DNA of 64,000 nt from Nautilus pompilius (taxonomy: Eukaryota; Mollusca; Cephalopoda; Nautilida; Nautilidae). This document shows, piece after piece, positions 7,060 through 63,938 of the stretch. Both the position numbers and the translations under genes were made by a program. The notes under the pieces are model-generated. The model was given only the letters and a program-made list of their open reading frames with translations, made no database searches and was not told the origin of the DNA. The DNA lies in contig JACATO010000626.1 in the NCBI GenBank assembly GCA_018389105.1, positions 62,001-126,000 on the forward strand. Reading direction: 5' to 3'. Position 1 is the first letter of the stretch, and each line of letters opens with the position of its first letter.

Positions 7060-7515
7060 AGGATATAAATATCTTCGACAGAGTAGGACCTGAGTTCCTG
7101 CTCTAAGATATCATTGAAGTTCTGAAGGAACGACGTCCGCTCCCTCTCCACTGTAGGTTCGTACACTACACCGAACAATGACTTTTCATTGGAGCTGATT
7201 TTTAAAGCAAACTATCGCTATTCTACCTCCATTATCACTGAAGGTGAGTTCTATTTCTATATTTAGACTATGGTGGAGAAGAATGCAGACACCTTTCTTC
7301 CTACCTATAGGGACTAAACTTGTGTATTGTTCCATGCCAGTTAGTGAAGTATCTATCTATTTCCTGTTTGTTTTGTAGATGTAGCTCTTGCATGCATATT
7401 TTGCTATCGTTTGCAGAATGTTCTTGATGATCTAGAAAGTCATTCCAGTGTTTGTTAAATTTTATCCCTCTTAAATTCAGGGATAAAAATTCCAAACGTC
7501 TGGACAATCGCTTAA
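7060..7515 (-). pseudogene. L0 ORF2 N-terminal fragment (AP endonuclease part)
   Basis: The frame reads SRRLEFLSLNLRGIKF, then KICMQELHLQNKQ, then NWHG, matching the first 65 residues of ORF2 in the other copies, including the conserved SLNLRG asparagine and the QE pair. The expected ATG is lost by a 2-nt deletion. The frame breaks at 7301 (stop after FSPYR) and continues decayed through RKKGVCILLHHS to about 7060. The endonuclease catalytic GDFN and SDH motifs are absent, so it has no function. Confidence 0.75.
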
Positions 7516-7677
7516 TCAGCTCAAAGTTAAACCCGAAAAATCCGCCCAAAGAGAGTGACACCTATTTAGGTGAGCATTTCCATGGGGCCGTGCCCCCGAG
7601 TTTGTTTAACAGGGGGAGGGAGGGAGCGATTCAGGTTCCTGAGGAGTTGTGGATACTGATTGAGTATCCCCTAACCC

Positions 7678-7809
7678 TAACCCGCGTTCTACGCGATAAT
7701 CTACAGACACTAACCCGCGTTCTACGCGGTAATCTACAGACAATAACCCGCGTTCTACGCGATAATCTACAGACAATAACCCGAGTTCTACGCGATAATC
7801 TACAGACAA
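7678..7809. repeat. 33-bp tandem repeat, four units, next to a CCCTAA-type run
   Basis: Four head-to-tail 33-bp units lie at 7678-7710, 7711-7743, 7744-7776 and 7777-7809, plus a short partial unit. Each begins TAACCC and differs from its neighbours by one to three bases. Immediately upstream, 7668-7683 reads CCCTAACCCTAACCC. Because 33 is a multiple of 3, both strands show open 11-residue repeats, which are an artefact rather than a protein. It sits inside copy L0, between its 5' UTR and ORF1 end. Confidence 0.9.
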
Positions 7810-8155
7810 TAACCTGAGGGCTCAGCACGAGCTAACAAAGAGAGAAATAGCAGGAAAGTGATCCGCCCACCTAATGAATATGCATGAGAACCTGACACAG
7901 TGTTTAACGCCAAAGACCCTCTCTGACTAACAAAGTCAATTCTAAACTAATCTGGCACCAAAATCGAAGAGTGAACGCAGGATGGAGAAAACTAAATAAC
8001 AATAGGTCGCTAGGCTGAGAAATTCACAGCACGATGAACTCAAGAAAAACCGCAAAACGCACGGAAATTTGAATAAATTTGCATAAAAAAGTGTCTTACC
8101 TTGAAGATGCTGTATCTTCGAAGAAAACGGCTCTGCTGTCGGAATTCGGGGTCGT

Positions 8156-10888
8156 CCGAGGTTTGAAGGGGAGGCTGGTGAGAGCAGGGGCTGCCCAAAC
8201 TCCTCCGAGAGCCGGCAGGAGAGGTACGGTTTGTCGTGGCTGAGACTCTCGGATACAGAGTTCACTCTCCGCCTGTCCCTAGAGGTGTATGCTGGGGTGA
8301 CCGGATGAGGGAGGCGAGAGTCTGAGATGAGGCTTAAAGTGCCGTGTGAGGAGAAAATGGATGGAGACAGGTTCTTCCCTCGTCACGTGGTGGTCAGAGA
8401 TGATGTCAGGTCGAGGTGTAGACGGGAGGTTGCCCGGTGACAGTCATCATGCTGACCGACGCCCAATTCCACATCGTGAAGGCAGAAGCTGGAGCAGAGG
8501 TGATGAAGCTGCAGGAGAGAGGGAGAAGCGAGGTTAGTCCAAAAGAGGGAAGAAGTGATAGATGGAGGCTGGGAGACGGAGAGGGATGCTGATGAAATAA
8601 GATCTTCCGAAAATTACAATCTCTCTAAAACGAAAAGGGGGAGAAGGGATAAAGAGGAGGAAAAGGAGTTTTAAAATCTTAGTCCCCAGACGAAACGTAG
8701 GCATCATCAAAAAGGTGAACAGCCCGCGGACGGACGTAGGGGTGGTGATGGGACTCGAGGGGTTGGCCTAGAGTTGAGATGAGGTGGTGGCTGGCTAGAT
8801 GAGGTGAGGGCGGAGTTGATGGTCTGTATTGATGTCCGAGGACGTTGATGAGCCAGATGGACGAGTATGTCGCCCTGTCAGTGATGCTGGACTGCGTGAC
8901 CGTATATTTTAGCCGTAAGTAAATCGTCACGTAGTTTTGGTTGAGGTGGGCTGACCGCCCTCTAGAACCTTCCGACTACCCCAAGCGATCCGCTGAGCGG
9001 AGAAGACCAGGAAGTTCGAAAGACGGTTCTTTTTACTCGAAGGGGGAACCCAAAGATGCGCCAGTACAAAGTGAGTTTGTCCTGGGGACTTTCAATGCGG
9101 AAGATGAAATCTCGGACTGGGCTCCACAGTTCTGTTGCCGGAGCAGGAGAATAGACAGTGGATGGCCGTGTCGTCCTGCTCGGGACAAGCGAGACATTTC
9201 GGAGAAGTTAGCAGTTTCCATTTATGCTTATTTTCCCTCGTGGGGAGTACATTTCGTAAGTTTCCAGTGTATGTCAGAGGAATACCCGTCCATCAGGCAG
9301 TTGATGGAAGCTTTCCAGATTCTATTCCATGGAAGCGGTCCTGATTGTGAGGTGGCTTCCCGCTTTCCCATGTAGTCCAGTTCCGTGATCGGGCCTTGAC
9401 ACCAGGAAGTAGATGTCACGCTGAGATAGTTTGTCTAGACCAACTACGTTAGTACCTAAGCTTACGGTGTTGTCTGTGCCAATGTTAACGTTAGATTTAT
9501 AGAATATTTTGGGTGTAGTGTAGGTGTCTGTCTTTTTGTAAAGAAAGAGGTTAGAAGAGGACCATCCGGTTAGTTGGGATTTAATTTTGTTAGTGTTGGG
9601 TATTAGTGCGGGTGTTAGTGAGAAAGTAGATGCCGAGAAGTTTGATCTTGTCTTCCGCCCATGTGATGTTGAACTGCTGTAGCGGCTGTCGGGCGCCCCC
9701 CCAAGCCGTGCTGCCTTGGTTTTACGGCGGTTAATAGGGCTCCTGAGGCTCGCTCGTATACTGCCATGGCTGCAAAGGCAGCTCCCATGCTTGTCTCATC
9801 CCTCAGCAGAAGTGTGGTGTCGTCTACATATTGTTGGATGCAGGTTCCTTCTATACCTGTGATGTTTGTTAATTGTCTGTTTAGTGCTGCCAATGGTTCC
9901 GCCGTTAGAACGTAGAGCACGGCGCTTAGGGGGCACCCCTGCCGGATTCCTCGGGTTGGGTGGAAGGACGAAGATAGCCGTTTTGGAAAATTTGAGTGCG
10001 TATGTTGGTGTAGGTGGTGAGATGTATATAATTGCAAAATACTCCCCGAAGCCAAGGATTTTGAGCAGAAAATTCCAGTCTACCCTATCAAAGGCTTTTT
10101 GTTGATCGACGGCTAGCATAATTCCTATGGAATTTTGTGTCTAGCCTACTTGTAGTTTCTCTGAACAGGTCTGATCAGCACTAGTAACTTCATGCATGAC
10201 TTTGGCTAACGCCTTAGCTATAATTTATAATCACTATTTAAGAGACTGATGGGCCTCCAGTTGTTCAAGCGCTCTGTCACCCTCCTTCGGTAGCAGTGCG
10301 TTGGCTTTCCGAGAGCACCCCCTTACTGTATGCGCTATTCTCAACCATTGTCAGGGCCTTAGCTAGGAGGTATTCAAGCCTCTTATAGAAATCCAGCGTA
10401 AGGCCATCATCGCCTGGGGATTTCTTTATTTGAAGCCCTAATGGCTTGTTTTATTTCTTGGATGGTTAGGGGTCCTTGAGAGCTCGGTTTCTAGTTTATT
10501 TTCTAGACACGCCAAGATGCTGTCCTGAGCTGACGGACAAGTGTCTTTACTGTACAACTCTTTATAGTACCGAGTCTCTTCCCTAATTATATCACCTATA
10601 TCGGTTAAGACGCGGCCTTCCTTATTTATAAGCTTGTTTATAGATTTCCTATCTGCCTTAGCTTTCTCTAATCCAGACTTTCTACAACCTTCGCCGTTCA
10701 TGGCCGGTACTCGGGCCTTCTGTCTTGTCTAATTGCAATCTGGCTAACTGGGTTTTGATGGCTTCAATTTTATTGACTCTATCTGAACCTAGCGCCGCTT
10801 TGGTTAATTCTTGTTTCAGTTGATTTTCTAGTAATTCTCTATACGCGCTACGTGCCTGACAATACTTGATACTAAAAGTCCTTATCTG
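8156..10888 (-). mobile_element. LINE copy A2, 5'-truncated, D/E subfamily
   Basis: It starts at 10888, directly after the T-run 10889-10896 (the A-tract of copy A1 on the minus strand). The first sequence is ORF2 linker, so ORF1 and the endonuclease were lost by 5' truncation. It ends near 8156 with the conserved 3' tail block (about 8290 down to 8156), but without a clear A-tract. Wording of the C-terminal ORF2 region matches copies D and E. Confidence 0.75.
8679..10888 (-). pseudogene. A2 ORF2 remnant: linker, RT and C-terminal zinc-knuckle region
   Basis: Pieces in order on minus: the linker before RT (about 10880-10700), ADRKSINKLINKEGRVL with TCPSAQD (10660-10530), and RT motif A region MLAVDQQKAFDRVDWNFLLK (10119-10055). 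GIRQGCPLSAVLYVLTAEPL (about 9965) and QQYVDDTTLLLRDE (about 9840-9800) follow. In the YxDD box Ala is replaced by Val; both aspartates remain. Later pieces are GPLPWNR and SSDIHWKL (about 9350-9250) and SITDRATYSSIWLIN (about 8880). At least six frameshifts or deletions separate these, and most of the thumb and connection is deleted between about 9700 and 9480. Non-functional. Confidence 0.75.
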
Positions 10889-11104
10889 TTTTTTTTCGGT
10901 GTAGTGGGGATGTTGAGGGTTGAGGTGCGAGCTGGGTCGGGCCGCCCAGCTGAGGTCTTATCTACGACCGTTTGTGTTGTTTTCTGGTTCCTCAGCCCCG
11001 CGGGCTATTCAAACTCCTTCGTATTGCACGCAGGAGGGGTAAGTTTCTCCAGGCTGCACTCCCTAATAACAGAGTTGTCTCTGTGTGTCCTTAGTTCTAA
11101 TTGG

Positions 11105-11324
11105 CACCTTTTTTCCTACCTGAGGGGTCGAGGCTGAAGATCATGCACCCCGACCAGTTAGCGAAGTGCTTATCTACCTGGTGTTGCGATTTTAGATGTA
11201 ATTCTTGTAGGCAGGCGATCATCGGTTGGTTAGAATTTTCAAGTTGATCGAGAAAAGTGTTCCAGTGGTGATTGAATTTAATCCCCCGTAAATTGAGGGA
11301 TAAAAATTCTAAGCGTCTAAACAT
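11105..11324 (-). pseudogene. A1 ORF2 N-terminal stub
   Basis: ATG at 11324 (or the in-frame ATG at 11330) opens FRRLEFLSLNLRGIKF, followed by CLQELHLKSQHQVDKHFANW and DPSGRKKG. This is the start of the AP endonuclease domain. Sequence then passes within a few bases into AATTAG and the 3' tail, which belong to the element's far end. Endonuclease active-site motifs after RKKG and the entire RT are missing. Confidence 0.8.
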
Positions 11325-11390
11325 GATCATAAGCCGATACTCATCGTCCGGAGAGGTTACCTAAGTCGAAAACGGGTGGTCCGTCCAAAA

Positions 11391-11418
11391 GAAGCGTCAC
11401 CGCTTAGCTGTTCGCTTC
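11391..11418 (-). other. ORF1 stop-codon hairpin, copy A1
   Basis: Stem GAAGCG/CGCTTC (11418-11413 with 11396-11391 on minus), 16-nt loop containing the ORF1 TAA. Confidence 0.75.
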
Positions 11419-12331
11419 CATGGGGTCGACCCCTGAGCCGGTGTGGGTGCCGGTTGTTGTTGTGGGGGCCGGTGCCTCACTGCACACCTCGAGGTGGCGG
11501 CGGAGTGGGGCATCAAGGGACCGGGATCGGCCAGGCGTCTCATGTCGGGGAGGGGTGACTGGGAGCGACTCCTTAACTGTTCGCTTCCCCGCTTTCCTCC
11601 TCCCCGTCGCTTAGGACGACGGTGTCGCCCTCCGAGGAGTGGCGGCTGCGGGTTTCCTCCCGCGGCTCCTCCTTGGGTGATGGTGGTGTTGGTGGCGTAG
11701 CTGTCTTCTCCGCTGGCGGGTGCGGTGTTCGGTTTGGTTGTCGTCTTTGTGGGTGGCGCCTCGCCGCTCGCTGATGTCCCCACGGGGCAGCTGTGGCCCG
11801 TTACCCGACAGTGTCGACAGTACCGGTAGAACACCGAGAACGGATATGTGCGGCCATCTATTGTCTCACGGATCCGGCGCGGGATGGGCTCCCGTAGGAG
11901 CATCTTCCCGCTCCGTTAGCCGGACAGGAAAGGGAGGCCGGGGATGGTGTCGTACTTAAGGGGTGTGAGTGTCGTACTGTATATTTCCAATATCTCCTGT
12001 GGCACTTTGCAGCCGGTCGTGAGGGGTAAACCTCTGATCTTTACCCCCTCCTGGCACAGTTTACCCCTTTGACGGTCAGGCGGTGCAACGCGTGGGCCAC
12101 ATCGTCTGCGTAGTGCAGTTTGCTGGGCTCTATGAACATGGAGCTTTTGTTCTCGAAGTGGAGGTTCCAGGGGTTGCCAGGCTCCATCAACAGTTCCTCC
12201 AGGAACTGACCAAAGGGCTTAATTCCACTCTTGGCCCCTGGCCCTTTGGTTGTTACATTGGTCGTCGCTACGGCCGGCATGGCGGCCTGCGCGTAGCTGG
12301 TTCCTGCTGAGTTCGACGGTAGGGGCTCCAT
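11404..12331 (-). pseudogene. A1 ORF1, disrupted
   Basis: The ATG at 12331 starts MEPLPSNSAGTSYAQAAM, then IKPFGQFLEELLMEPG, ENKSSMFIEPS and YADDVAHALHR. At about 12080 a deletion removes the conserved VRAVIPSYGG segment and joins to LTVKGVNCARRG, followed by a stop. A second frame (11903-11404) carries LLREPIPRRIRET and a damaged knuckle, CRHCRVTGHSC, in which His-Cys spacing has shrunk from x4 to x1, so metal binding should be lost. The basic linker and ancestral ending MEANS-stop are still visible, with the stop in the loop of the terminal hairpin. Confidence 0.8.
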
Positions 12332-12552
12332 CGATTTTTGGGGGATTTCCCGAAAGACAGCTGGCGAAAGAGGGTCCTACCGGAGAAGAGTAGGGTGAGA
12401 AGGGATAGTTAGGTGGAGAAGGAAGGACGGATGGCTGCTAGGACAGCGGGATGGAGACGGATTTGAGGAAGAAAGAAACGGAGAATAAGAGAAGATCGAG
12501 AAAAGCGAAAATACGGGGGGACGGGTCGAAGAGCCTACTGGGTGTATTAGAG

Positions 12553-15205
12553 CACTGGTTCCCTAATTTAACAATTTTTCGGGGGTAATGGAGGGGTGAC
12601 AGAAAAAGAAGTTAATAATTCTGAAAATCAAGAAAACATTGCGGTACCTGGCGTCAGGATTAATGTTAACTTAGTATGTAATGTTGTAAAGTAAACCTAT
12701 TATAATTAAGTAATAAAGTTAAACCGAATAACAATAAACATCAAAAACTAATATACAGTATTAGAAAAGAAGAAATATGTATCTAAGTGTGGCAACCCAA
12801 AAGTATTTTGACAGGTATGCTTCAGGACACAGTAAGTCACTCAGTAACCCTGATGACTCATCGTCGAGTCCAGTATGCGTCACTCACCGTCTGAGGCGAC
12901 CTCTATAATCAGTTTCTCTGTGAGCATCAGCCGGTATGCATGTGTACTGCCCTGTGCATAGTTAATATTTACCCACTGTTACATTATTCCTATGCTGAAT
13001 GAGCTCTTCTAATCCTATCTAGAACGTCATGAAAAAATAAATAAGTTCTCAATGTTCACACTTTTTTATGCAGTTTTTTCTTCTTTTTCTGCAGATTAAA
13101 CAATAAAATGTCCAAAAAGCGCACTACACTGACGCCTTTCTTCGCCATGGCTTTGTGAATTTACCTTCTGGTGGAGAGGACCGGCCACAATGTGTGGACA
13201 AATGAAAGCCTCAAGCCATCAAAACTCTCAGCTCACCTCCAGAAGTGCCATCCAAGTCTTCAAAATGAGGATCAGCCTTATTTTCAGCGCCGGGCTGTAG
13301 CACTGAAGAATATCCAGTTCGGTTCATCTGGAATTCAAGCCCAAAAGCTTCAAGCTGCGGTCGAAGCATCCTACTTTGTTGCATATAAAGTTGCCGAACA
13401 AGAGAAATGCCACACCCTTGCAGAGAATCTGATTATGCCTTGTGGTAAGCAAGGTATGTGGGAGGATCAAGCGAAGAAACCGAGTGCCATATCTCTATCA
13501 AACAACACAATCCGTCGATGACATGGCATCAGATATCCTGTCCCAAGTTACAACAGAGATCAAAGAAAGCTCATATAGCAAATTCTCCTTGCAATTTGAT
13601 GAATCGTGTGACGTAGCCAGTTGTGCTGTTCTCCTTGGGTTCGTCCGTCACGTCCACCAGGACAAGATCCAAGAAATTTCCTATTATGCGAGGATCTGCT
13701 GACAACCACTAAGGGAGAAGATGTCTTCAATATCATCAACAGTTTCTTTACCAAGAATGGATTGGATTGGAACAGCGCTCAACAGGTAGGGAGAGAAAGT
13801 CTAAATTAGTATAAATACAATGAATTACATGGCATATAGTCATAGTTTTATTTATTGTACAAGTAGCTAATATTTTGTACAGTTTAATCCATTCTTTTTC
13901 TTTCTTCCATTCCTTTTTTGTTGTTTACTAATTCTTCCTTTTCGTTTATTCTTTTCTCGATTGTTTCCGTTTTCTTTCTGTGTCTCTCTCTCTCTCGCTT
14001 TCTTCTTCTGACCAACTGGCACAACCTATAATCATTTTTCTTTTTAATCCAGGTCTCCGTCGATGATGGGTGGTTATCGTGGATTACGGGGCCTCATACA
14101 AGTTGTGAATCCAGAAATTTCTGTAGATCATTGCATCATTCATCGGTACTCTCTTGGATCGAAAAGCCTGCCTGGTAATCTGAAGTTAATGTTTGAAGAT
14201 GTGTTGAAAATCGTCAACTTCATCAAGTCCAGGGATGTGAATTCGCGCATATTCAAGGAGCTGTGCAAAGAAATGGGAGAGCAGCATCAAGTTCTGCTCT
14301 ACCACACCGATGTTCGCTGGTTGTCACGAGGCAAGGTTATACATCGTGTCATTGAGCTCCGAAAGGCTATTCAAGAATTCCTGGAACAAAAAGGATCTCC
14401 TTTTGCTACCAAGTTCACTGATAAGGAGTGGCTTGCTCGACTTTGTTACTTGGCTGACATATTTGCGGAGCTGAACAGTGGTAATCTGCAACTCCAGGGC
14501 CGAAACACGACTGTCATTGATGCCCATCACACTGTGGCTGCATTTCTGGGGAAACTGAGACTCTGGATTCGGCGCTTGGAGAAAGGAGTGATCGCCCAGT
14601 TCCCCACCCTAGACCAGTTTGTTGAGGAAAATAGTCAGGATACTGGATCACTTCGACAGACCATCAACAAAGAGATGAGCGACCATTTGAAGGGGCTTGA
14701 AACAAGCATGCATCACTGCTTTCCAGAGGGTGACCAAGAAACAGCCAGTCTTCAGTGGATCATTCATCCCTTCTCTGTACCTGATGAGGCCATTCATGAT
14801 AATGATTTCCCTGCAAAGGAGGAGTGGATCACAATGCGAGCCAATGAAGCCTTGAAAATCGAATTCCAAAACCAAAATGCAGATTCCTTTTGGATTTCAC
14901 GACTAGCTGACTCGCCAACTCTGTCCAAGAGAGCCTTGAAGTTGTTGGTATCATTCTCAACAACGTATCTCTGCGAGAAGGGGTTCTCAACTGTGCTGGG
15001 CTTGAATGTTGCGAACGATGCCAGGCTGGCACTTTCAACCACGAAACCAAGAATTCCTCAACTAGCTTCAAGCATGCAACTCCATCCATCCCACTGATGT
15101 TCTCGACATCTTTGTGCATCTCTAATGACTATTGCCAATGTCATATATATCAATGTTGACATTTTGTGAAAGGGGTAACAAGCTGAAAAAGTTTGGGAAC
15201 CATTG
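12553..15205 (+). mobile_element. Old hAT DNA transposon inserted in LINE copy A1
   Basis: The left end at 12553 reads CACTGGTTCCCTAA. The right end, reversed, reads CAATGGTTCCCAAA. These are imperfect terminal inverted repeats of hAT type. Flanks GTATTAGAG (12544-12552) and GTATAGAG (15206-15213) look like an 8-bp target duplication with one indel. LINE A1 5' UTR sequence continues on both sides. It carries a broken transposase on the plus strand. Confidence 0.8.
13108..15097 (+). pseudogene. hAT transposase (ZBED5/SCAND3-like), disrupted
   Basis: A likely start at 13108 (MSKKRTTL) stops within 16 codons. The BED-type finger is damaged by a frameshift; only the second half, SLKPSKLSAHLQKCHP, is in frame. 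Conserved phrases follow: VEASYFVAYKVAEQEK, LQFDESCDVASCAVL (first catalytic Asp, about 13600), CIIHRYSL, IVNFIKSRDVNSRIFKELC, LLYHTDVRWLSRGK and the C-terminal dimerisation box TTYLCEKGFSTVLGLN with the third acidic residue. The second catalytic segment (usually TDGA) is lost near 14060 by a short deletion. Between 13785 and 14052 a 268-bp non-coding gap begins GTAGGG and ends TTTTTAATCCAG, which could be an intron or an insertion. The final 344-codon frame (14063-15097) is open. Confidence 0.85.
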
Positions 15206-15847
15206 GTATAGAGAAAGGGATATCGAGGAAGTTGGCGCAGAGACAGGGCTGGACGGATGGTACGAACAAAGGGAGGCGGGCTGCTGAAAGGAAAAACCTA
15301 GTAGGTGTTTTTATTGATATGTAACGCGGCCTACTAGGTGGCAACAGACGGAGAACAAGGTACAAGGTGAGAAGACGGACGCGGCCCTAGAATTTACCAC
15401 GTGCGTGTGGACGAAGCTGAGCCAAGATGGCCGACCTAGAACGGGGAGGGGAATCTGAAAGTGAACAAAGGAAAACTGACTACAACGGGGCTCTGGGGTG
15501 AAATCCACCTGAAAACAGGGGATTTCGAACTGCCCTAAAAGGGCTTACTACTGAATATTCAGCGGGTGGCGTCTGATGTAAACAAAGGCACTAAAAGTTG
15601 AATTTTAAGGAAACTATTCTACGCTAAGAGTTTCCACCCGGGGCTAATCCTGGAAAAAGAAATGGCTAATCTAACTAATGATGTGATTTCCTCGAAGGGA
15701 TTTAACTTACAAATTATCGAAAAAACTAAAAATAGAACAAAAACGCCCACTTACCTTTCGTTGAGAAAAGGGTTCCAAAGTCAAACTTACCGGGCTAGAT
15801 GGCTCTTCAAGTCGGTCGATCTCGTCTAGTGAAAGCAAAATCTGATG
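15206..15847 (-). other. 5' UTR of LINE copy A1 (upstream part)
   Basis: This matches the F 5' UTR, for example the conserved run around CACGTG near 15398 and the stretch naming the start (AGACGAGATCG). It has a splice-donor-like GGTAAGT whose GT is at 15790-15789 on minus, 57 nt from the element start. A perfect 10-bp inverted repeat (15296-15305 with 15330-15339) encloses an AATAAA; F has the equivalent structure with a different stem. No conventional promoter motif is recognisable. Confidence 0.6.
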
Positions 15848-18800
15848 TTTTTTGTGTGGTGTGCCTACCTTTATTAAGACTAGAAAGTTCTGTGAGGTGT
15901 AGCCAGATCGGTTCCACGACCGGCCGTCTTAGCTGTTTACGAGTGAGACTTATGTACGCCTGTGAAAGTGGGTGTTTTAGCCTAAGTGAGAGTAGCCGGC
16001 TACCCAACCCCGCCCAGAGGTAGGATGTACCCAGGTGCTTGCTCTCGAAGTGGAGTTTTCTCTCCGTTCATCGCTAAGCTGTAAAGATTAGTTAACATCC
16101 TTCTACCGCCAACGTAGAAATCCGTAGTAGGTCGAGTTTGACCTCTGCCCCCTTGCAGTTTTCCTTACATTTTATGAATGGTCGCTAGTCGGCCTATTGT
16201 TCGAGTTAAGTGGTCATTCTCGTCCGGCGTCTGCTTCTTTCTTCTCTCGTTCCTGAAACAAAGGTGGGTTTTCCACCGGGGAGCTCCTCCTAAGGTCGGA
16301 GTTTGTGTTGATGCACGTTCTCAGACGTGGCTAATTAGTCGCTTGCCATCAAGCCGGCCTAACGCCTGGTTTATGAGCCAGGTGTTCGAAAACAGTTCTC
16401 GGTCCAACTCACTGGAAGAACCGGCCGTGTATTTTCTACGTAGCGACGGTAGACGGTTTGGGTTGGAGTGAGTTTTCCGCCCTCTAAAGTCCCCCGACTA
16501 CTCCAAGCTCACTGCTGGGCAGTGAAGATCAGGAAGTTCGAAAGACGGTCCTTTTTACTGTGGGGGGTTGAATCCAAAGGTGCGGCGGTAAGTTGAACCA
16601 GAACCTCGACCAGGTCCCACAGCGGCTCCTGCTGCGGGCAGCTGAAGATGCTGTGGAGGACCGTATCGTCTTGGCCTTCGCAAATGAGGCATTTGGGGGA
16701 GTCTATCAATTTCCACTGATGCTTCATTTCCCTCGAAGGGAGACGAGGTGGATAATCTTCCAGTGGTTGTCCGAGGTGTAGTTGTCTAAGCGACAACCTT
16801 TTGATCGGTCCCATAGCGCTTTCCACCTCCCCCTGTAATCTGGTTCCGTCACCGGGGCCGACGTCAGGTGGAGCTATAAGTCACGTTGCGATAGTTTGCT
16901 TATTGGTTTATAAGTTTGGTCTAGTTTAGCTTGATTCCCTATAAGGGTTATTTGGCTCTTACTCCAACTCTCTCTATGCTGAATTTGTGGTATCTACTTA
17001 GGTTATTGTTGATTTTTTGGTGGATTCTAGGCTTTCCGCGTAGGGTAACTATTCCGTATCTACCTGTTGGGAGTATAGTGTTTGGTACATCTATCGTATC
17101 ACCTATGATATCAAGTATGGATTTTATTCTCTGTGCGCGTATTTTGCTCTGTTTGCCACGTTTAATCCTCCGCAATTCCGGGGAAGGCGAATTACCTGTT
17201 TACTGACGAGGTGTTTGCGCCCTTGCCACAAGAACTTGTCCAGTTCAGCGTCAATGGTGGTACGCGCCCACTCCGGCATGTCTATGACTTTGCTCCTATA
17301 CCATATAGGGGCGGTGAGTATACAATTAATCACTGTTTCCTTACCTACAAAGCTAAGGTTATGGGCTCGCCAGCCCTTTATCTGACTTTTTATCTTTTCA
17401 ACTAGCTCGTGCCAGTTGTCCCTGTCTACGTTTGTCTCTGCTAAGGGGGCACACGATACCCAGAATTTTTATTGTCCCTAGCCCAGCTAATTCCAAAACT
17501 GTCGGGATTGTGGGGGGTTTTCCGAAGAGAACCGAGCCACGCCCCTTTGGTTTTGGTTTTGTTTATTCTGGCACCAGATGCCCGCTCGTAAAGGCGAAGT
17601 TTGTCGAACGCCGCCTCCAAACTCCGCTCGTCACGGACTGAGATCGTGGTTCGTCGGCGTACTGAATTATTTTAGCCTCTATTTTATCTGTTATTTCTAT
17701 CCCTCGTATTTTCTCCTCAGCGCGTATCGAACAGGCCGTCGTCTCTGCAGCGAGCACATACAGCAGCGCGCTGAGAGGGCATCCTTGCCGTATTCCGCGA
17801 GAGCATTTAAAGTACGCCGAGATGAAACCGTTCTGCGTAATTCTTGTCTGGATATCCGTGTACGCTAACTTTATCCAGCTAACGAAGTTATCCCTGAAAC
17901 CTAGTTCTTTAAGTGTTCGTAAGAGAAAACTCCACTCTATCCTATTGAATGCTTTCATCTGATCGACGGCCAGCATGATGGCTGGGGAGTTTTCCGTGTC
18001 TACTTTATGTAGGATTTCTCTGATCAGCTGGAGGGAGTCGGCCACTCTCCTCCCTCTGACTGAACAGGTCTGCTCCCCACCCGTGACTTTATACATAGCT
18101 TTGGCCAGCCTTTCGCTTAACACCTTAGCTATGATTTTATAGTCATAATTTAGTAAACTGATGGGCCTCCAGTTCGTCAGGCTGTCCCGGTCTCCTCCCT
18201 TGAACAACAGGGTCACCGTGGCACAGCGCTGGCTGGCTGAGAGAACGCCATCATCGAACGCACTGTTCGCTACGACTGCCAAGTCCTTAGCTAACAGGTA
18301 TCCGAACCTTTTATAGAACTCCGGCGGAAGGGGTGACTTCTCGTTGTTTAGAGCCGCGATGGCTCGTTTTATTTCTAGTTCCGTTATGGCTCCGTCGCAG
18401 AGCTCGGCCTCTAAGGGATCTAGTTTATGTTCTAACGTTTCGAAAAGTTCCTCCTGAGCTGACGGACAAGTTTCCTCACTAGTATACAGTTGTTTAAAAA
18501 ACCGAGTCTCTTCCCTAAGGATGTCCTCTATGTCGGTGACGTAGCGACCGTCGTTAGTTTTTAGACTAGTCATCTGTTTACTCTGAGCTCTAGCCTTCTC
18601 TAAGCCGCAGAAGGCTTTGCTGCACCTTTCTTCGCTAATAGCCTGCGCTTTGGCTCTTATTCTAGCGCCTTCTGCTTTGCTACTAGTTAGGTTGGTTAAC
18701 TCTTTTTTAATGGCTTGGATCTTATCTACGTTAGGGGATCCTATAGCCGCTTGGTTTAGTTCTATTTTAAGGGCGTCCTTAAGGTGCCTCTCTCTATATT

Positions 18801-48372: not shown

Positions 48373-48439
48373 ATTTGACGGTCTTTTTGGTTTTGACTCC
48401 AGTAACGTCCATTGGACAAACGAGCTTGATTAAGCGATT

Positions 48440-53104: not shown

Positions 53105-53134
53105 GATCAAAGTGTAGTATCTGTTCTTATCAGT
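53105..53134 (+). other. U2 snRNA-like segment at the start of copy I
   Basis: Thirty bases equal U2 snRNA nucleotides 25-53 apart from one extra A. It includes the branch-point-recognition stretch GTGTAGTATC. It lies between the A-tract of H and the rest of the I 5' UTR. The remaining U2 sequence (Sm site, 3' stem-loops) is absent, so this is not a U2 gene. Confidence 0.8.
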
Positions 53135-54460: not shown

Positions 54461-56279
54461 TGACACGGAAGATTCCATAGGAGTCGTGCTAGCCGTAGGT
54501 CAGAAAAAGGCTTTTGATAGGGTTAACTGGAGTTTTCTCATAGAAACACTTGAAACCCTTGGTTTCGGGGAGTATTTCATTAACTTTGTTAGGCTATTCC
54601 AAAACCATTTAATCACAAACATCTACCAGAACGGATTTCTTTCATCATCCATCCACCCAACAAGATGCATCAGGCAGGGGTGTCCCCTCAGCGCCATGCT
54701 GTATGTTCTGACAGCGGAACCGCTGGCCGCCATGATTCGCCAGAACCAAGCAATAAGGGGGATAAATGGTGTCAGGATTCAGCAATACGCTGATGACACC
54801 ACCCTCCTGCTAACAGATGCGTCCAGTCTGGACGCAGCGTTCAAAGTCCTGGAGGTCTATGAAAAGGCCTCTGGGGCAAAAATAAACAGAAGAAAGACCA
54901 CCGCAGCATGGCTGGGGGGCAGTAATAAACCCCTGCGCCAATACAACATCAACTGGGTGGAAGACAAGATTAAACTACTGGGAATTTACTTCCCAGTAAA
55001 ACACAGTACTAACACGCAGCATGACAACTGGCAACCTGTGATTAATAAAGTCAACGCTTTACTAACCGCATGGTCCTCGCTAAACCTTTCTTTCTTTACT
55101 AAAACTGAACTAGTCAATACATATCTCGCCCCAAAAATATACTATAAATCTAAAATAATAGGGATGCCAGGCTGGGCGCGCACCGCCATAGACGCCGAGT
55201 TAACTCGGTTTCTTTGGCAAGGACGCAAACACCTGGCAAACAAACAAATAATCAGACTCCCTCGGAACCAAGGAGGATTAAATCTGATCAATCTAGAGAG
55301 CAAAATAGGTGCTCAACAGATACTAAACATAATAGATATCATAAGGAACGTAAACGACAGACCAAGATGGCAAAATCTCTTCATCTCCCGGTTAGCGAAA
55401 GCATTTGACACCCTCGACGGGGTCGATGTTCTCACTAATAAACTAAAACTATACAGAGCACAAAGAAACTTACTAACAGACTACCACATAACCGCACTCC
55501 AACAATGGATCACTAGCAACATCTCTATAGGAACAGATAACATCGTAAGCCTAGGAGATACTAAAATAGAACTAGACAAATTATCCCAGCGAGACATCTA
55601 CCTCTTCCTGTCATCACGACCTATAGAGGAACCGAATTACAGGAAGAGGTGGGAAGACACCCTAAACTCAGGAACACTTCCGTGGGACAGAATATGGGCT
55701 AGTTCCATTAATCGTCTCGTGGACGGACAAACATCTGACATACACTGGAAATTAGTAAGGAACGTACTCCCCACAAGGGAAAATAAACATAAATGGAAAC
55801 TAATAAATTCACCCAAATGCCTCGCTTGTCACGAGGTGGACGAAACGGCAATCCATTGTCTATTTTCCTGTCCGCAGAACATAGAACTATGGTGCCTAGT
55901 CCGAGATTTGATTTTCAAAATTAAGAGTCTCCAGAACAAACTTACGTCGTTCTGGCGCATCTTTGGCTTCAACAACAGAACTAAAAAGGACTGCCTTTCG
56001 AACTTTTTGGTTTTCACCGCCCAGCGGATCGCTTGGGGTAGCCGAAAGGCTTTAGAAGGCGGTCAGCCTACCTCAACAAAATTACTATTCCAAAATTACG
56101 TAACTGATTGGTTACACCAAAAATATGCAGTCATGAAATCCAGCATAAATGACAGACAAATTTTCTCATCCACCTGGCTAATTAACAATGCATTAGGACA
56201 AATCAATACAAACAAAACTTTACACATACACTTTGACAACCCTCCAACTTCAACACCTAGTTTAGATCAACCACCCTGA
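54461..56279 (+). pseudogene. I ORF2: RT palm to C-terminus, motif A Asp lost
   Basis: An open frame of about 600 codons continues in phase from the ORF1 remnant. It starts at RT motif A, which reads VLAVGQKKAFDRVNW: the catalytic Asp of AVDQ is Gly here, so polymerase activity should be absent. GCIRQGCPLSAMLY-type wording (Arg-Gly replaced by Arg-Cys, TRCIRQGC) and QQYADDTTLLLTDASS follow. WLGG, LLGIYFPVKH, WARTAIDAELTRFLWQGRKH, LPWDRIW and the knuckle CLACHEVDETAIHCLFSC are intact. The end LDQPP-stop is at 56279. RT motifs before motif A and the endonuclease are deleted. Confidence 0.9.
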
Positions 56280-57321
56280 GTCACCCCCTTTAATATCTTT
56301 TTCATTTAAGTTTAATATAGGATGCTGGAAAAGAAGACTTCTTAATACTCTTTTTCTTCTCTTCTTCTTATTACTCTTTCTACTTCTTGATCTTTATCTT
56401 GTACACACATCGTGATTGCTATAATGTCTTAACTTGTACACTCAGCGTGTTTACTAAGTAATATTTGGAAATAATTAATTCTTCATATGTAAATCAACGA
56501 TTCTTTCTTAAATGATCTCTGATCATTTTAAAACATAAACTAAAAACAAAGTGGAACTTCTTTATCTTATCAAACCAAACTCCCACCCCCTCCCCTTATT
56601 TTCAGTGTAAGCCTCTATTTATTTATAAAGTTACCCCACCCCTATATTATACACATGGACTAACCATGAGTTTTTCTTCGTTGCAATAACAAACATACAC
56701 AGTCCCAAAGAAGATCAAGACACAAGAAACATCTATGTGGTGTGGAATGGGGCAGAGGATGCTGTGATGACAATCAACACAACAGACTCTGCTACTTCCC
56801 GAAATGACCACCTGCATGGGAACCTCTGGTTCTCCCACGTTGGAACAGTAAATAGCAAAAGTCATAAAGACTTTAAAGCTATAATTACAAGAGAATCTCC
56901 GATTCTCCCACGAGGGAGGACTGAAAATGAAGAAGCAAACGGAGGGAGAACATGTCTCCATCCATCACCCCGCAAAAATAAAAATAGAACTCTCTCCATC
57001 CTTCCAATTTTTGGAAACTGAAAAATAAACAGTGGCCCAAACTTCCCTTTCAGTACAAGGACATACAGAGAGAAAACTCTGTTTCTAGAGAGTTCAGCCA
57101 GGACAAACCTACCCCTCCTGCGTGCAATACGAAGGAGTTGGGTAGCCCGCTGCTCTCGCTAGGCTGAGGTACACTTTTAAACAAAACACAGGTCGAAATA
57201 AGGCCTCACTTATAAACAGCTGAGACGGCCGGTCGTGGAACCGATCCAGCTACACCCACATACAAACGCAACATAACAAACACTCCCCTAAACACCGCAC
57301 AACACCAAAAAAAAAAAAAAA
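56280..57321 (+). other. 3' UTR and tail of copy I
   Basis: Hairpins: GGGAAC-CTCTG-GTTCTC at 56818-56834 with one G:U pair, GAGAAT-CTCCG-ATTCTC at 56891-56907, and GGAGA-ACATG-TCTCC at 56945-56959. The tail block starts at about 57056. It ends in A15 followed by the U2-like start of J. Confidence 0.78.
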
Positions 57322-57351
57322 GATCAAAGTGTAGTATCTGTTCTTAACAGT
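57322..57351 (+). other. U2 snRNA-like segment at the start of copy J
   Basis: Same segment as in I with one T-to-A change, again directly after an A-tract. The shared extra A in G, I and J shows a common source rather than three independent draws from a normal U2 gene. Confidence 0.8.
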
Positions 57352-58377
57352 CGGATTTTACCAAAGCGACGTCTCGGAACCCGCATTGCGGAAGTACCTG
57401 ACTTTTTTTCGTCCAGCGCACCGAAAGGTAAGTTGCTTTCCTTCTCTGCTGTTTATTTTCGCGTGTCAATTTCCGTCAATTTCACTGTGCTTTTAGTATA
57501 AGTAATAGAACTAGACTCCACTGTTAATTAGAAAGCACGAACTGTTCACTGTGTGTTTCTTAGGCAAGCTAGGGCTCTGAAATTGTTTAGGCGCGTTGCG
57601 GTTGGACGCTAGGTCCCCGTCACATAAGTCCCACGGGACACTTATTAGCTCCTTAAAGGGTCTCCGGACACCTGTTCTGTTCCCCCTCTAGAATACGATA
57701 GAACATACTTCCTAAGAGTCGTCATACTCATTTCTTAACTGGCCACTTAGATTTTCTTCCCTCCGCTACGCTTCTTAGTTAAAGTCTCCGGACTCCTTTC
57801 TTCTGCCGCAAGGCCCCGTAAGTGGAAGTTCTTCCACAGCGTTTCCAAGTAATAAGTCTCTGGACTTAGTTTTTCTTCTCCGCCGCTTCCCTGCCCACCG
57901 TATAACTTGTAAAAGTTCTTTAGAACTTTCCTTTCTGCTAGGTTAAATAGGCTTTAAAACACTTCGTGTTATTTTCATATCTCTCGCGAGTAGATAGTCT
58001 CCTCTTCTCCTCCCCGCTTATCCGGGAGTAGATACGAAAACACGAACCTCTGGTTGCACTAGTTAAATCACCCCGCTTAAGTTAGGCAGCATACCTGTCA
58101 CGCTCCAGAGGAATCCGTAAACCCTGATAGATAGCAACACACAGTGAGCGCCCCCTCAGTAAAATCTGTTAGAATCCCACCACAGTTCCACCCACCCCAT
58201 CAGTCACCTACGCCCCCCCCCCCGCCAACCCCACTTCTCCATAGCACTCTGCCAGCCACTCCCTAATCCGATACATTAGGATACAAATACAGAGCCGTAC
58301 TAGACACAAAGAAAGCGTCGGTAAGTAGCCACTCCTTTTTTTCTTTCGCTATTATACTGGAGCGCGACACATCTGCG
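57322..58377 (+). promoter_or_regulatory. 5' UTR of copy J with U2-like start
   Basis: 57322-57351 matches U2 snRNA nucleotides 25-53 with one extra A and one T-to-A change. A donor-like AGGTAAGT has its GT at 57428, 106 nt in. A second GGTAAGT lies at 58319, shortly before ORF1, followed by a pyrimidine tract near 58335-58350. A C-run lies near 58212-58222. Confidence 0.55.
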
Positions 58378-59580
58378 ATGGAGCCTCAGCCATCGACATC
58401 CGCCAGCGCCGCCGTCGCCGCACCTGGCGACAAAAACAACGCGGAGACAAAAACCCCGAACGTTAATGAGGCCAACAAGGGAATAAAAACGTTCGAGTCA
58501 TTCCTCAGGGAACTGGAGCTGGACGCGTCCAGCTTGAAATTTGAACAGAAGAGCTCCCTGTTCGTGACCCCGGCCGCCGACGTCTACTGCGAGGACGTCG
58601 GCCGTGCCCTCAGCCTGGCCGGTCTGCTACCCCGTGTAAGGGCAGTCATTCCGAGCTACGGCGGGGCCGTGGAAATAATATGCCGGACAATGAAAGACGC
58701 CGAGGAGATGTGCACGAAAGCCCTGACCATCAAGGGCATCCATCACGTCATGCGGGGGGCCTCACCCCTCGCATGGGTTAAGATCCGGGGACTTCCGCTG
58801 ACCACGGGGTGCCGGATCCCCGAGCAACTGCTTGAACGGTACGGGCAAATCCTGATACCGTTCAAGTATGATTGTATTCCGGGGCTCCCGCTACTTTCCG
58901 GTCAGCGCAGCGGAAAGATGCTCTTGAGGGAACCGATACCCCGCCGCATCAGAGAGGTGGTGAACGGGCGGACCTACAGCTTCTCTGTCTTTTACAGAGA
59001 TCAGCCCGCCCCGCCCCCGTACTGCAGGATCTGCAGAACTACGGGACACACTAGGTTTAGTTGTCCGACGGGGGCGGAGAGAACCTCAGAATTACCACCA
59101 CCAACGAACCCAACGCCGGAGGTAAGTGCCCCCAACCCCGAAACCACCACGGAGGACACGGGGGACAAAAGGAAAAAGGACCAGAAAAAGTTGGCCCTGA
59201 AAACAAAACGACCACCCATAAAAGAAGAGCCGGATGAGGAAAGAAACGACCCGCCGGAACAACAAAAGCCGGCAGGCTCTGACGGGGAGGACGACCTAGT
59301 CGTCGTCTCCGTCAGGAAACCACAGCGCCCGAAGGGGCCGAAGAGGACGGTGAGGGGCTCCAGCCCTCCAACCCCTCCAAAGAAGAAGAAGAGGAAGGCG
59401 GAAAGCACTCCGTCCACAGCTGAAGTGAGAGAACCGTCAGCAGAGAGGCCCAATATGGCGCCCACCGTGGTCTTAGAAAAGCTAACACCCCTACGACTCA
59501 AGGGGCTGATGGCATGGAAGTGCCCACCTGAGGGATGTCACTTCCTTTTCGGACGGCTCTTTCGGCCTCGTTTTAGGTAA
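58378..59580 (+). CDS. J ORF1: full-length RNA-binding protein with CCHC knuckle
   Basis: ATG 58378 opens MEPQPSTSASAAV and a 400-residue frame, the only long uninterrupted ORF1 in the window. In order: IKTFESFLRELELDASSLKF, KSSLFVTPAADVYCEDVGRA, VRAVIPSYGGAVEIIC, AWVKIRGLPLTTG, YGQILIPFKYD and SGQRSGKMLLREPIPRRIREV (RRM-like region, about residues 45-215). The knuckle CRICRTTGHTRFSC (about 223-236) is followed by an acidic/basic linker with KRTVRGSSPPTPPKKKKRK. The frame passes the ancestral stop (TGA 59529-59531 in another frame) and ends RLFRPRFR. G shares this ending. Whether the extended tail is functional or a shared frameshift is uncertain. The protein would bind LINE RNA in a ribonucleoprotein particle. 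Confidence 0.82.
   Translation: MEPQPSTSASAAVAAPGDKNNAETKTPNVNEANKGIKTFESFLRELELDASSLKFEQKSSLFVTPAADVYCEDVGRALSLAGLLPRVRAVIPSYGGAVEIICRTMKDAEEMCTKALTIKGIHHVMRGASPLAWVKIRGLPLTTGCRIPEQLLERYGQILIPFKYDCIPGLPLLSGQRSGKMLLREPIPRRIREVVNGRTYSFSVFYRDQPAPPPYCRICRTTGHTRFSCPTGAERTSELPPPTNPTPEVSAPNPETTTEDTGDKRKKDQKKLALKTKRPPIKEEPDEERNDPPEQQKPAGSDGEDDLVVVSVRKPQRPKGPKRTVRGSSPPTPPKKKKRKAESTPSTAEVREPSAERPNMAPTVVLEKLTPLRLKGLMAWKCPPEGCHFLFGRLFRPRFR
59516..59545 (+). other. ORF1 stop-codon hairpin, copy J
   Basis: Stem GGAAGTG (59516-59522)/CACTTCC (59539-59545), loop with the ancestral TGA (59529-59531). Confidence 0.8.
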
Positions 59581-59613
59581 CGTCCACGGACTGCGATCTC
59601 TTGACCACCGATC

Positions 59614-62600
59614 ATGTCTAGACGCTTAGAAATCTTATCCCTGAATTTAAGAGGGATAAAATTCAACAAACATTGGAATAACTACCTAGATCAACTGTCA
59701 CACACCACCCACGACAGAATAATATGCATGCAGGAACTGCATCTGCAGTCTAACCATGAGGTAGATAAGTATCTTACCAACTGGCATGGACTAGCAGTAA
59801 CCAGCCTAGACCCCATAGGTAGAAAGAAAGGTGTCGCAATCCTCTTTCACCCAAACATGCACCCAAAAATAGAACACACCTACAAAGACGACGACGGACG
59901 GATCGTCATAGCCAGCTACCAAAACCAGCTCCAAAGAAAAGTAATGATTGTATCGGTGTACGCCCCTACCGTTGCGAAGGAGCGGACAGCGTTCTTTCTG
60001 CGCTTCAATGATATACTAGAGCAGGAACTTAGGTCATACCCTGCAGACGACATATACATTGCAGGTGATTTCAACTGCGTCCCCTCCCATGAGCTAGACA
60101 GGCAGGGATCAGACATTAAAAGTAGGACGCATCTGATGGGAGCGCCACAACTGCAGACCATGTGTTCGCGGTTTGGCCTGGTCGATGCGTATAGATATAA
60201 ACACCCAAACGCGCTGTCGTACACTCATTATAGTAAAAAGTATAGTGTAGCCACTAGACTAGATAGAGTGTACGCATCTAAACACATGGCTAGGCAACTC
60301 CAGGACGTGGCGCACGACGTTATCGCGTGGAGTGACCATTCCCAGGTCACGGCCGGCTTCTTGATTCAAGCGAATACCAGAGGACCCGGATTATGGAAGC
60401 TCAACAACGCTATTCTGACCGAGTCGGAGTACGTCGAGAGCATCCAGAACATCTGGAGAGACTGGTCCCTGCGCAAGGACGAGTTCGCCGACCCCCTGGA
60501 ATGGTGGGACTTAGGCAAGGACAGACTAAGGAATTTTAGCATAAGGTATAGTCAGGCACGTAGTGCATATAAGGTATACATAGAATCTAGACTTAAAGAG
60601 GAACTAAAGCTAGAGCTTAAACAGGTCGCTTTAGGGCTAGACAACAAAGAAAAGATACAAGCCATCCAAACCAAGATCAACCGCATTCAGGTAGACAAAA
60701 CAGAAGGAGCTAGGATTAGGGCCTGAGTACCGGCCATGAACGGTGAAGGTTGTAGGAGGTCCTTCTGTGGTTTAGGAAAAGCAAATGGTGATAGGAAAAC
60801 TATAAATAAACTGATAAACAAAGACGGCCAGACCCTCACTAACTTGGGGGATATCCTAGATGAAGAGTCTCGGTTTTATAGTGAATTATACACTAGAGAA
60901 GACACTTGTCCTTCAGCTAAGGACGAAAACTTGGCGTGTCTGGAAAATAAACTAGATCCCCTAGATGCCGAACTCTGTGAAGGACCCCTAAACGTGAATG
61001 AGGTAAAACAGGCCATTAGGGCCTCAAATAAAGACAAGACTCCCGGAAAGGACGGCCTTACGCTAGATTTCTATAAGAGGTTTGAATACCTCCTAGCAGA
61101 GGACCTGACTTTCGTTGCGAATAGCGCATACAGTAGGGGGGCTCTATAAGAATCCCAGCGTGCCGCCACCATCGTCCTGCTGCCGAAGGGGGCAACGGGG
61201 CGTACCTGGAGAACTGGAGGCCCGTAAGTCTCCTAAATAGTGATTATAAGATTATTACTAAGGTGCTAGCAAATCGGCTAGGCAAAGTAATCGGTAAAGT
61301 TACCAGTGCAGTTCCTGGTAGGAGTATCACGAATACCCTCCAGCTGTTCAGAGAAAGTACAAGTAGGCTAGACACGGAAAATTCCCTTGGAATAATGCTA
61401 GCCGTTGATCAAAAGAAAGCATTTGACAGGGTAGATTGGAATTTTCTGATAAAAACACTTAAAGCCCTAGGCTTTGGGGAGTATTTCGTAAATTTCATCC
61501 GCCTTCTCTACAGAGACATCACCACACAGATACAACAAAACGGTTTCGTCTCTTCGCCTATCCACCCAACTAGAGGCATACGGCAGGGATGCCCCCTGAG
61601 CGCCATGCTATATGTCCTCACTGCTGAGACGATGGCGGCCTATATCCGCTCTAATGGAAACATTAGCGGTATAGGTGACGTCAAAGTCCAGCAGTATGCC
61701 GACGACACGACGCTATTCCTGCAGGACATGGACAGCCTGCAGGAGGCTCCCAGAAGCCGCCTAAACGTCACAGCGTGACATGGGTGGAAGGCCAGATAAA
61801 ATTACTAGGCATCTTTTTTCCCACTAATGCACACACTAACATGCAAAAAGACAACTGTAATACAATAATCAACAAGATCAAGGCTTTACTAACAGCATGG
61901 TCTTCTTCAAACCTCTCCTATCTTACAAAGTCACAACTCATACACACATACGCTGCACCCAAAATTTACTACAAGGCCAAAATTATAGGAATGCCAGCGT
62001 GGGCGCGTACCGCCATAGACGCCGAGATCGATCGGTTCCTGTGGCAAGGGCGCAAACACCTGGCGAATAAACAGGTAATTAGACTCCCCAGATGCCGTGG
62101 AGGGCTAAACATCATAAACCTAGAGAGCAAAACAGGTGCTCAACAAATTATAAATATATTAAACGTCATTAGAACCACTGAGAATAGACCAAGATGGCAC
62201 CAGCTACTTTTAGACCGTTTAGCTAAGGCATATCGCGCCCCTAGCGGGATGCATGTCTTAACTAACAATCTTAAACTATACAGAGCACAGAAAAACATAC
62301 TAACAGACTACCAGGTTAGCGCCCTCACTAACTGGATCAAGTCCAACACAGACATAACACACAGCATGATCTAGAACAATTATCCCAACGTGATATATAC
62401 TTATTCCTGTCATCACGCCCGATCACAGAACCGGACTACAGGGGGAAGTGGTAAACAACCCTAAATTCAGGCCCAATTCCATGGGATAGAATTTGGAATA
62501 GCAGTATAAACCGCCTCGTGGATGGATACACCTCTGACATACACTGGAAAATTCTAAGAAACGTACTCCCCACCAGGAGAACAAACACAAATGGAAGCTT

Positions 62601-63028
62601 ATTAACTCACCGAAATGTCTCAGATGTAATGAGAAGGACGAGACGGCACTACATTGTATATTCTCATGTCCTCTGAATATTGAGCTGTGGTGCCTAGTCC
62701 GTGACCTGGTATTTAAAATTAAAAGTTCCCAGGACAAACTTAGTTCATTCTGGCGCATCTATGGATTCACTCCTAGAACTGCCTTTCGAACTTCATGGTT
62801 TTCACCCCTCATCGGATAGCCTGGGGTACCCAGAAGGCTTTAGAGGGCGGTCATCTCACCTCAACCAACAAACTCTTCCAAAATCACGTAACACTTTGGT
62901 TACGACAAAAATACGCAGTCATGAAGTCCAGTATAAATGATAGAGTAATCTATTCATCCATCTGGCTCATCAACAACACCGTTTACAACTACACCCTGAC
63001 GTCACACCATCCTCAACCATCACCTTAG
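59614..63028 (+). pseudogene. J ORF2: intact endonuclease, disrupted RT
   Basis: ATG 59614 (MSRRLEILSLNLRGIKF) opens 370 codons with all endonuclease motifs: MQELHL, VYAPTVAKER, AGDFNCVPSHELDRQG, ATRLDRVYAS, WSDHSQV. A nonsense codon (CGA to TGA, about 60723) ends it. The next frame ends at TAA 61147-61149, where TCA is expected. A 1-nt loss near 61190 and a 15-nt loss removing DQTCA (about 61310) follow. MLAVDQKKAFDRVDW, GIRQGCPLSAMLY and QYADDTTLFLQD are intact. A deletion of about 100 nt at 61748, between two GGAGGC repeats, removes the region up to PPK. Later frames carry LLGIFFPTN, FLWQGRKH and the knuckle CLRCNEKDETALHCIFSC with more shifts. The end is near 63028. Confidence 0.88.
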
Positions 63029-63938
63029 ACCAACCCCACCCTACCCTTGTCTTTCGTCACTCCCTTTCTTTTGTTTCAGATGAAACTAATCTAGAAGACT
63101 CTTAGGAACAGAAGACTTCTCTCTAGTTTTCTTGCTTTTTCAGCAATTTTGTAATTTCAGAATCTTTAAGACGACCTGCGGAGATCTTTTGAAATCCTAA
63201 ATCTTACTATAATTTCAATTCCACCTCCCCCAAACAACTTAACCCCCTCCCCTCTATCAGTGCAAGCCTCTATTTATTTGTAAAGTACTCCTCCCCAAAC
63301 ATCAACCCCGTAAATGGACTAACCATGTTTCTGTCTCCGTTCCTACTATCCACCCTTTACAGTCCAAACTAACATCAAAGGATTTTCAAAAGAAGACGGT
63401 GGTGCGGAATGGGGGGCTGGCCGCTAGGCTACTTCCCGGCATTTCCACCAGCCAGGGAACCTTCGGTCCCCCTACGTGGGAGGATCAAATGATCACCTCT
63501 AAATATTACCATCTGGGAATCTCTGATTCCCCAACGTGGGAGGACTGACCACCACAAATTAGGAAACGGAGGGAGAACGTGACTCCATCCATTTTTCACC
63601 AACAAAAAATAAAAAATAGAACCCACCCCACCTCCATACTCATGTTGGATTTAATAAAAATAAAAAGTGGCCCAAACTCTCCCCTCTCAGCTTCTAAGGA
63701 CACACAGAGAGAAAACTCTGTTCCGAGGGTTCAGCCTGGAAAAATCCTACCTCTCCTGCCGTATTTACGGAGGAGTTGGGTAGCCCGCTGCTCTCACTAG
63801 CAATAGGTACACATACACAAAACACAGGTCGAAATAAGGCCTCACTCATAAACAGCTGTGACGGCCGAACGTGGAACCGACCCAGCTCCCGACACACAAA
63901 CACAACCTTACACACACCCACCACCTCAAAAAAAAAAA
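63029..63938 (+). other. 3' UTR and tail of copy J
   Basis: Hairpins: GGGAAC-CTTCG-GTCCCC at 63455-63471 and GGGAAT-CTCTG-ATTCCC at 63515-63531, each followed by ACGTGGGAG. GGAG/CTCC at 63572-63586 is a weakened version of the third hairpin. The tail block starts at about 63696 and ends in A11. Confidence 0.78.

Follow-up and report, generated by a model that had tools for sequence, protein, structure and literature searches.

The window analysed in this study, a stretch of 64,000 nucleotides of the Nautilus pompilius genome (C602:62001-126000, in an assembly of 727.6 Mb and 2558 contigs), contains an array of long interspersed nuclear elements (LINEs) that lies inside a 1.42-Mb contig. Our analysis indicates that these elements, which are Keno-like LINEs with two open reading frames (ORFs) and an apurinic/apyrimidinic (APE)-type endonuclease, very probably insert at sites of the form (A)n/GATC (a slash within a sequence marks a junction or cut) and duplicate 4-30 bp of the target, the poly(A) tail and the following GATC rebuilding the site. 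Seven plus-strand copies, D to J, occupy 21425-63938 and are preceded by a deleted copy C, and minus-strand copies occupy most of 7058-19405. The first-pass annotation of the window had described a head-to-tail array of many LINE copies with different subfamilies as neighbours. This array is real, and the boundaries C/D, D/E, E/F, F/G, H/I and I/J lie where they had been placed. Moreover, the copies are about 66-93% identical to one another, so several LINE lineages are mixed in the array.

The junctions can be read directly from the sequence. An A-tract followed immediately by GATC was found at C/D (A6, position 21425), E/F (A7, 30412), F/G (A11, 37269), H/I (A12, 53105) and I/J (A15, 57322), and at D/E (27094) a tract of ten A residues is followed by a 5'-truncated copy. 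On the plus strand of 21001-64000, 5 of 41 A-runs of at least six residues were followed by GATC. At G, I and J, GATC merely opens a longer match (21-29 bp) with the U2 small nuclear RNA (snRNA) gene: the starts of these copies match GATCAAAGTGTAGTATCTGTTCTTATCAG over 21, 29 and 25 bases, respectively, and a minus-strand copy at C602:55165 matches U2 over 30 bases, one base past GATCAAAGTGTAGTATCTGTTCTTATCAG. The resemblance to U2 snRNA was confirmed against the genome's own U2 genes, which were located by the Rfam covariance model (two at C2023, one at C1704); GATCAAAGTGTAGTATCTGTTCTTATCAG is nt 25-53 of this gene, in the context GGCTAA/GATCAAAG. The dissimilar 5' starts of the copies have in common just GATC, or 4-30 bases of U2. 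An Rfam scan of the window at E values up to 10 did not detect U2, for which the shortness of its segments is presumably responsible, and the weak matches to sR33, nhaA-I and Fluoride fell below the gathering scores and were attributed to chance. The array had been thought to be seeded by the elements' own ends. On the best reading, the junction motif is instead a duplicated endonuclease target, namely the U2 snRNA gene site or a like (T)AA/GATC site, and the elements' ends look self-seeding because insertion duplicates this target.

The association of LINE 3' ends with GATC was also found in a survey that was blind to the flanks. The set comprised the first 40 reverse transcriptase (RT) matches of the genome in rank order (726-732 bp, spanning model positions 2 to 202/203); solely the expected 3' end was inspected, and junctions were called by eye. 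Data were available for 38 of the 40 (C1672 was without data, C2461:21002 runs off its contig, and one end was read from L039), and 32 of the 38 ends were readable, the others being L075, L078, L081, L084, L086 and L087. GATC directly followed the LINE 3' end in 23 of the 32 readable ends. As background, 61 kb picked as mostly non-LINE sequence contained 187 A-runs, two of which were followed by GATC; both were the known U2-like sites L021 and L033, and with these set aside the count was 0 of 185. According to BLAST, 18 of the 32 ends continue into sequence matching collected LINEs. Among the 23 ends followed by GATC, 15 run into LINE-matching sequence and five into one common start (L056, L069, L079, L080 and L091), which is probably a LINE as well, while L060 and L064 continue into sequence without a LINE match. 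Thus, a 3' A-tract followed by another copy, the arrangement that the first-pass annotation proposed to look for genome-wide, was seen at 18 ends and probably at five more.

An isolated copy at C231 carries a duplication of its target. Its flanks read GAGATAA/GATCA-[LINE]-A9/GATCA/GAAACTG (5' side from L097, 3' side from L064), that is, a 5-bp target duplication at a TAA/GATCA site that is not in U2. Furthermore, L060 reads A18/GATC-A10/GATC, which has the appearance of a poly(A) tail that inserted on its own and made a 4-bp duplication. The starts of the H-, F- and D-type copies (GATCA, GATCA and GATCT) fit a duplication of 4-5 bp, and those of other lineages one of 17-30 bp.

In LINE integration, the endonuclease makes a bottom-strand nick from which the 3' end of the RNA is copied. 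The cleavage steps and the order of events that we infer for the present elements would be as follows. The endonuclease would nick the bottom strand at the (T)AA/GATC junction, with nt 24/25 of U2 snRNA (GGCTAA/GATCAAAG) as one such site, and reverse transcription would be primed at the nick from the poly(A) tail, which would explain why most copies end in A-tract/GATC. The distance from this nick to the downstream cut in the top strand would be about 4-5 bp for the H, F and D lineages and 17-30 bp for other lineages (21-30 for G, I and J and for the C602:55165 copy); with the cuts staggered in this way, the target would be duplicated upstream of the new copy. The outcome would be A-tract/GATC...-[LINE]-A-tract/GATC..., in which the poly(A) tail may supply the left half-site, as is suggested by junctions that keep just 4-6 U2 bases, and the duplication the right half. 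Every insertion would add one new site, and since the site is asymmetric, the copies would all face the same way. An age that rises toward the 3' side is no requirement of this mechanism.

All 40 exact matches of the U2 21-mer in the genome were read, a sample that is biased in that it was selected by the 21-mer. The order LINE A-tract, U2 segment, LINE was found at 25 of them, with 21-30 U2 bases between the A-tract and the next copy; such segments measure 4-6 bases in window copies D and F, and 17 in L069 and L079. Ten further sites consist of a LINE-derived A-run followed by the rest of U2, three are intact U2 genes, and two are without an upstream LINE (L021, and L033, which continues into part of U2). 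At four of the ten U2 remnants, a plus-strand LINE 3' end is joined to U2 (L027, L030, L037 and the degenerate L026). Some 35 bp beyond the 3' end of U2, seven of the remnants (L027, L034, L037, L038, L042, L043 and L044) continue with an A-run/GATC and a D-type LINE. A second class of U2-like 21-mer, ending in CTGTC instead of CTGTT, was noticed at C59, C120, C315, C358 and others, and is perhaps a family of U2-headed short interspersed nuclear elements (SINEs).

Neighbour relationships also bear on how the arrays formed. When the flanks of 60 junctions were clustered by single linkage at 96% (L076 and L083 were dropped, their upstream parts being too short), 23 upstream and 31 downstream clusters combined into 40 distinct pairings; the 60 include 13 junctions that do not join two LINEs, namely ten U2 remnants, one intact U2 gene, L021 and L033. 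Seven last elements (C2380, C2333, C719, C1647, C1147, C283 and C1759) are 97-100% alike in their first 460 bp and have the 3' flank of J 5.3-6.7 kb downstream, and they have two kinds of upstream neighbour (five versus two) that are just 75-77% alike. Altered neighbours at A/GATC boundaries agree with the prediction of the insertion model. That LINEs inserted repeatedly at one recurring target, as the first-pass annotation had proposed, is well supported, both by GATC after 23 of the 32 survey ends and by near-identical downstream elements with different upstream neighbours. Window copy I and L036 of C1078 were considered as the same copy and rejected as such, for they are 98.9% identical over the last 400 bp at most but 92.6% over 2.9 kb.

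Several observations weigh against this reading. A complete two-sided target duplication was seen at C231 only, and for five of six isolated copies (C575, C933, C117, C1331 and C2313, that is, L092-L096) the sequence read on the 5' side did not include the start of the element. In the survey, three LINE/LINE boundaries were without a full GATC (L070, L071 and L088), L057 (A8/GCCCC) runs into sequence that matches no collected LINE and has GGTAAGT, and L090 (A22/GATC) likewise runs into sequence matching no collected LINE. The other non-GATC flanks at five of the 32 ends (L055, L065, L074, L089 and L067, the last with an inverted LINE about 330 bp farther on) and the 3' end of copy J, which reads A11/GTGTACAG with no GATC site, show that target specificity is not absolute. 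At six of the ten U2 remnants, the A-run is internal to an inverted LINE piece that abuts U2, and these six are probably one event copied. At none of the 40 exact 21-mer sites does a LINE follow the 5' half of U2, no dedicated search for the 5' half having been made. Moreover, the sites are not all independent, because many contigs are near-duplicates. Finally, in C283 and C1759 a B-type neighbour was expected farther upstream than the odd one, and is absent there; non-LINE sequence was found in C283 and a partial LINE against non-LINE sequence in C1759, so recombination or loss also plays a part.

The order of the array might instead have arisen mainly by duplication or recombination of a once-formed array, that is, by segmental or satellite-like amplification with little fresh insertion. 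Amplification has also acted. The 270-bp 3' flank of J is present in at least 40 copies at 96-100% identity, J's own included, among 91 candidates, and window H/I/J and C2479 are 94-99% identical at the junctions compared. In addition, an inverted copy of about 6 kb of the array's 3' flank was found on the same contig (C602:42001-48373 versus C602:125228-132408, in pieces 96-98% identical), so two array units meet head to head. The flank copies and this inverted copy show that multiplication of the locus took place. Mosaic elements such as G/J and H/L023, and the failed prediction at C283 and C1759, point the same way. The first-pass annotation thus set segmental duplication aside too readily. 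As the principal source of the order, amplification nevertheless seems unlikely. It would have to account for 40 distinct pairings among 60 junctions that differ at A/GATC and for one downstream element with different neighbours, and it could create neither the U2 match nor the duplication at the isolated C231 copy. Both insertion and amplification act on these arrays.

According to a further explanation, GATC with or without more of U2 is the elements' own 5' end, captured U2 being carried in the RNA with no target duplication. Near-identical copies do keep the same 5' start at many sites, CTTATACTTGG being an example. However, the length of the U2 match varies (4 to 30 bases) and the sequence beyond it differs, GATC follows LINE 3' ends also in U2 and in flanks matching no LINE, and C231 shows a duplication outright. 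Carried U2 together with a duplication would moreover predict doubled U2, which was seen at none of the 40 sites, and we regard this explanation as highly improbable. Least probable of all is an assembly artefact joining repeats of different loci at A-runs. In its favour are the short contigs that carry many of the arrays and the head-to-head inversion in the window contig. Against it, junctions of this type recur on many contigs, some of them with A-runs of just 4-9 and an undamaged U2 segment, and they are also present next to non-LINE sequence on contigs of 0.7-1.4 Mb (L030, L060 and the window).

With insertion at (A)n/GATC as the preferred mechanism, the location of the arrays merits attention. 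Some adjoin U2 gene remnants; others, the window's included, lie away from U2 within a repeated unit, which was copied as well. We tentatively propose, as something quite possible and short of probable, that diverged lineages share a self-rebuilding (A)n/GATC site made of the tail and a 4-5 bp duplication, and that mixed-lineage "satellites" free of U2 were then amplified. This target, the mixture of lineages in one array and the arrays outside U2 are apparently new, and in titles and abstract openings of the open-access literature no description of mixed-lineage LINE arrays at a U2 site was found. Near-identical loci with different neighbours should also allow insertions to be ordered and their rate to be measured.

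Head-to-tail LINE runs with 3' A-tracts are known from HeT-A/TART, which are attached to chromosome ends. A similar telomere function was rejected here because the array is internal to its contig; the telomere-like letters of the window amount to a short stretch of CCCTAACCC next to the 33-bp minisatellite (7678-7814) within a LINE copy. Keno is a Tx1-clade LINE that targets U2 snRNA genes, and we take its insertion position, from the junctions seen here, to be this very position in U2 (TAA/GATCAA). In the present study, LINE 3' ends joined at U2 ...TAA/GATCAA were found at the four plus-strand LINE sites, and ORF2 of copy H encodes an APE-type endonuclease (PF03372). The elements do not have strict U2 specificity, given the non-U2 GATC site at C231 and the five of 32 other non-GATC flanks. 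The likeness to Keno is one of site and endonuclease and concerns the APE-type enzyme and the U2 3' flank (PMC4640811); multi-lineage arrays and A/GATC-reduced sites away from U2 are not described for Keno in the available portions of that report. According to the same portions, Utopia and Keno share the 3' flanking U2 sequence, Utopia-1_NVit is occasionally tandem in U2, and reptile Utopia families have 20-bp duplications (PMC4640811). Utopia differs in belonging to another lineage with a restriction-like endonuclease, in place of which the APE domain was found here.

A parallel in logic is offered by R1, in that a new copy enters the 5' target duplication of a resident copy. Tandem R1 elements of Drosophila appear to arise by insertion into a 14-bp duplication at the 5' end of the resident R1, and R1 insertions outside 28S fall at sites sharing 4-9 bp of identity, where duplications of 3-14 bp are generated; the highest R1 levels given in the available text average two to three R1 per inserted unit (PMC2718515). 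As in R1, copies are separated by a target duplication here (21-30 U2 bases at the 25 sites). The sites read are U2 or A/GATC in contrast to 28S rDNA, several lineages mix, and the arrays occur also outside the host gene. Zepp of green algae resembles the present case in its clusters of nested LINE copies. It is another LINE, however, with one cluster per chromosome that is thought to be centromeric, and the available text mentions no snRNA target (PMC3446292). Targeting a low-copy gene such as U2 has been considered to seem a poor survival strategy for a transposon (PMC4640811). Duplication of the target at each insertion would be a concrete answer to this problem, since the LINE makes its own targets.

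Five LINE frames of copies F, H and J were scanned for domains, and three matched, giving APE endonuclease, RVT_1 and zf-RVT; the two ORF1 frames among the five gave no domain match. In copy H, the pieces of ORF2 lie at 48440-49444 (APE endonuclease, PF03372 at 1.8e-13) and 49509-52106 (RT), both on the plus strand. The longest LINE frame of the window has 865 aa, and other RT matches of the genome have open frames up to 1199 aa. A homologue search with ORF2 returned relatives of at most 43% identity, nearly all of them nameless and one from Holothuria. A hairpin in the 3' untranslated region (UTR) is kept across the lineages; it lies at 63699..63806 (plus strand) in J, with equivalents in D to I starting at 26932, 30258, 37038, 45984, 52842 and 57060, and an alignment of 16 sequences gave 25 pairs with a two-sided change in only one. 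This conserved hairpin is likely a recognition element for the RT. At the 5' ends of D, F, G, H, I and J (six of six), a splice-donor-like GGTAAGT lies 85-108 nt into the copy, with the variants GGTGAGT in copy D and GGTAGGT in copy H.

The plus-strand part of the array begins with copy C (19498..21424), which has an internal deletion and a 3' A6. Copy D (21425..27093) starts with GATCT, a 4-base U2 prefix, and ends in A10, the truncated copy E (27094..30411) ends in A7, and copy F (30412..37268) starts with GATCAA, a 6-base prefix, and ends in A11. Copy G (37269..46241, 21-base prefix) holds a hAT transposon at about 43437-45979, with a 636-aa ORF, a Dimer_Tnp_hAT domain and an 8-bp duplication, ATATAGAG. 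The claim that the copies follow each other with no spacer was borne out from C/D to F/G, at H/I and at I/J. It fails at G/H, where a polyadenylated non-LINE insert of about 190 bp (46242..46441, plus strand) is present. Copies B and C adjoin in head-to-head orientation (about 19405-19498), and no A-tract lies between them. The G/H insert, perhaps a retrocopied 3' UTR or a SINE, is a later insertion with its own target duplication, since the order is A12/TCACTTGG, insert, A15/TCACTTGG and copy H. Copy H (46441..53104) starts with (G)ATCA and has an A-rich 3' tail, copy I (53105..57321) has its 29-base U2 match at 53105-53133, and copy J (57322..63938) has a 25-base prefix, or 29 bases with one mismatch.

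On the minus strand, copy B (15847..19405) has the 3' end A6/CATCA. Copy A3 (10897..15846) has an F-like 5' end, CATCAGATTTTG, and an internal deletion, and is interrupted within about 12.6-15.2 kb by non-LINE sequence carrying a 344-aa ORF, for which a Pfam scan gave no match. It is followed by a 5'-truncated copy after A8 (8140..10888), whose own 3' end is without an A-tract, and by the 5' part of a further copy (7058..8140), which contains the minisatellite and is broken off against non-LINE sequence. The minus-strand A-tract boundary of the first-pass annotation is accordingly present as A8 before the truncated copy at about 10889, with a further one, A6/CATCA, at 15847, and is lacking near 8140. 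Mosaic copies were also observed: between 39104-41430 and 59435-61747 identity drops abruptly from 93% to 81%, and the 98% identity of copy H to L023 stops abruptly at H position 5452. Such drops point to recombination or template switching between lineages.

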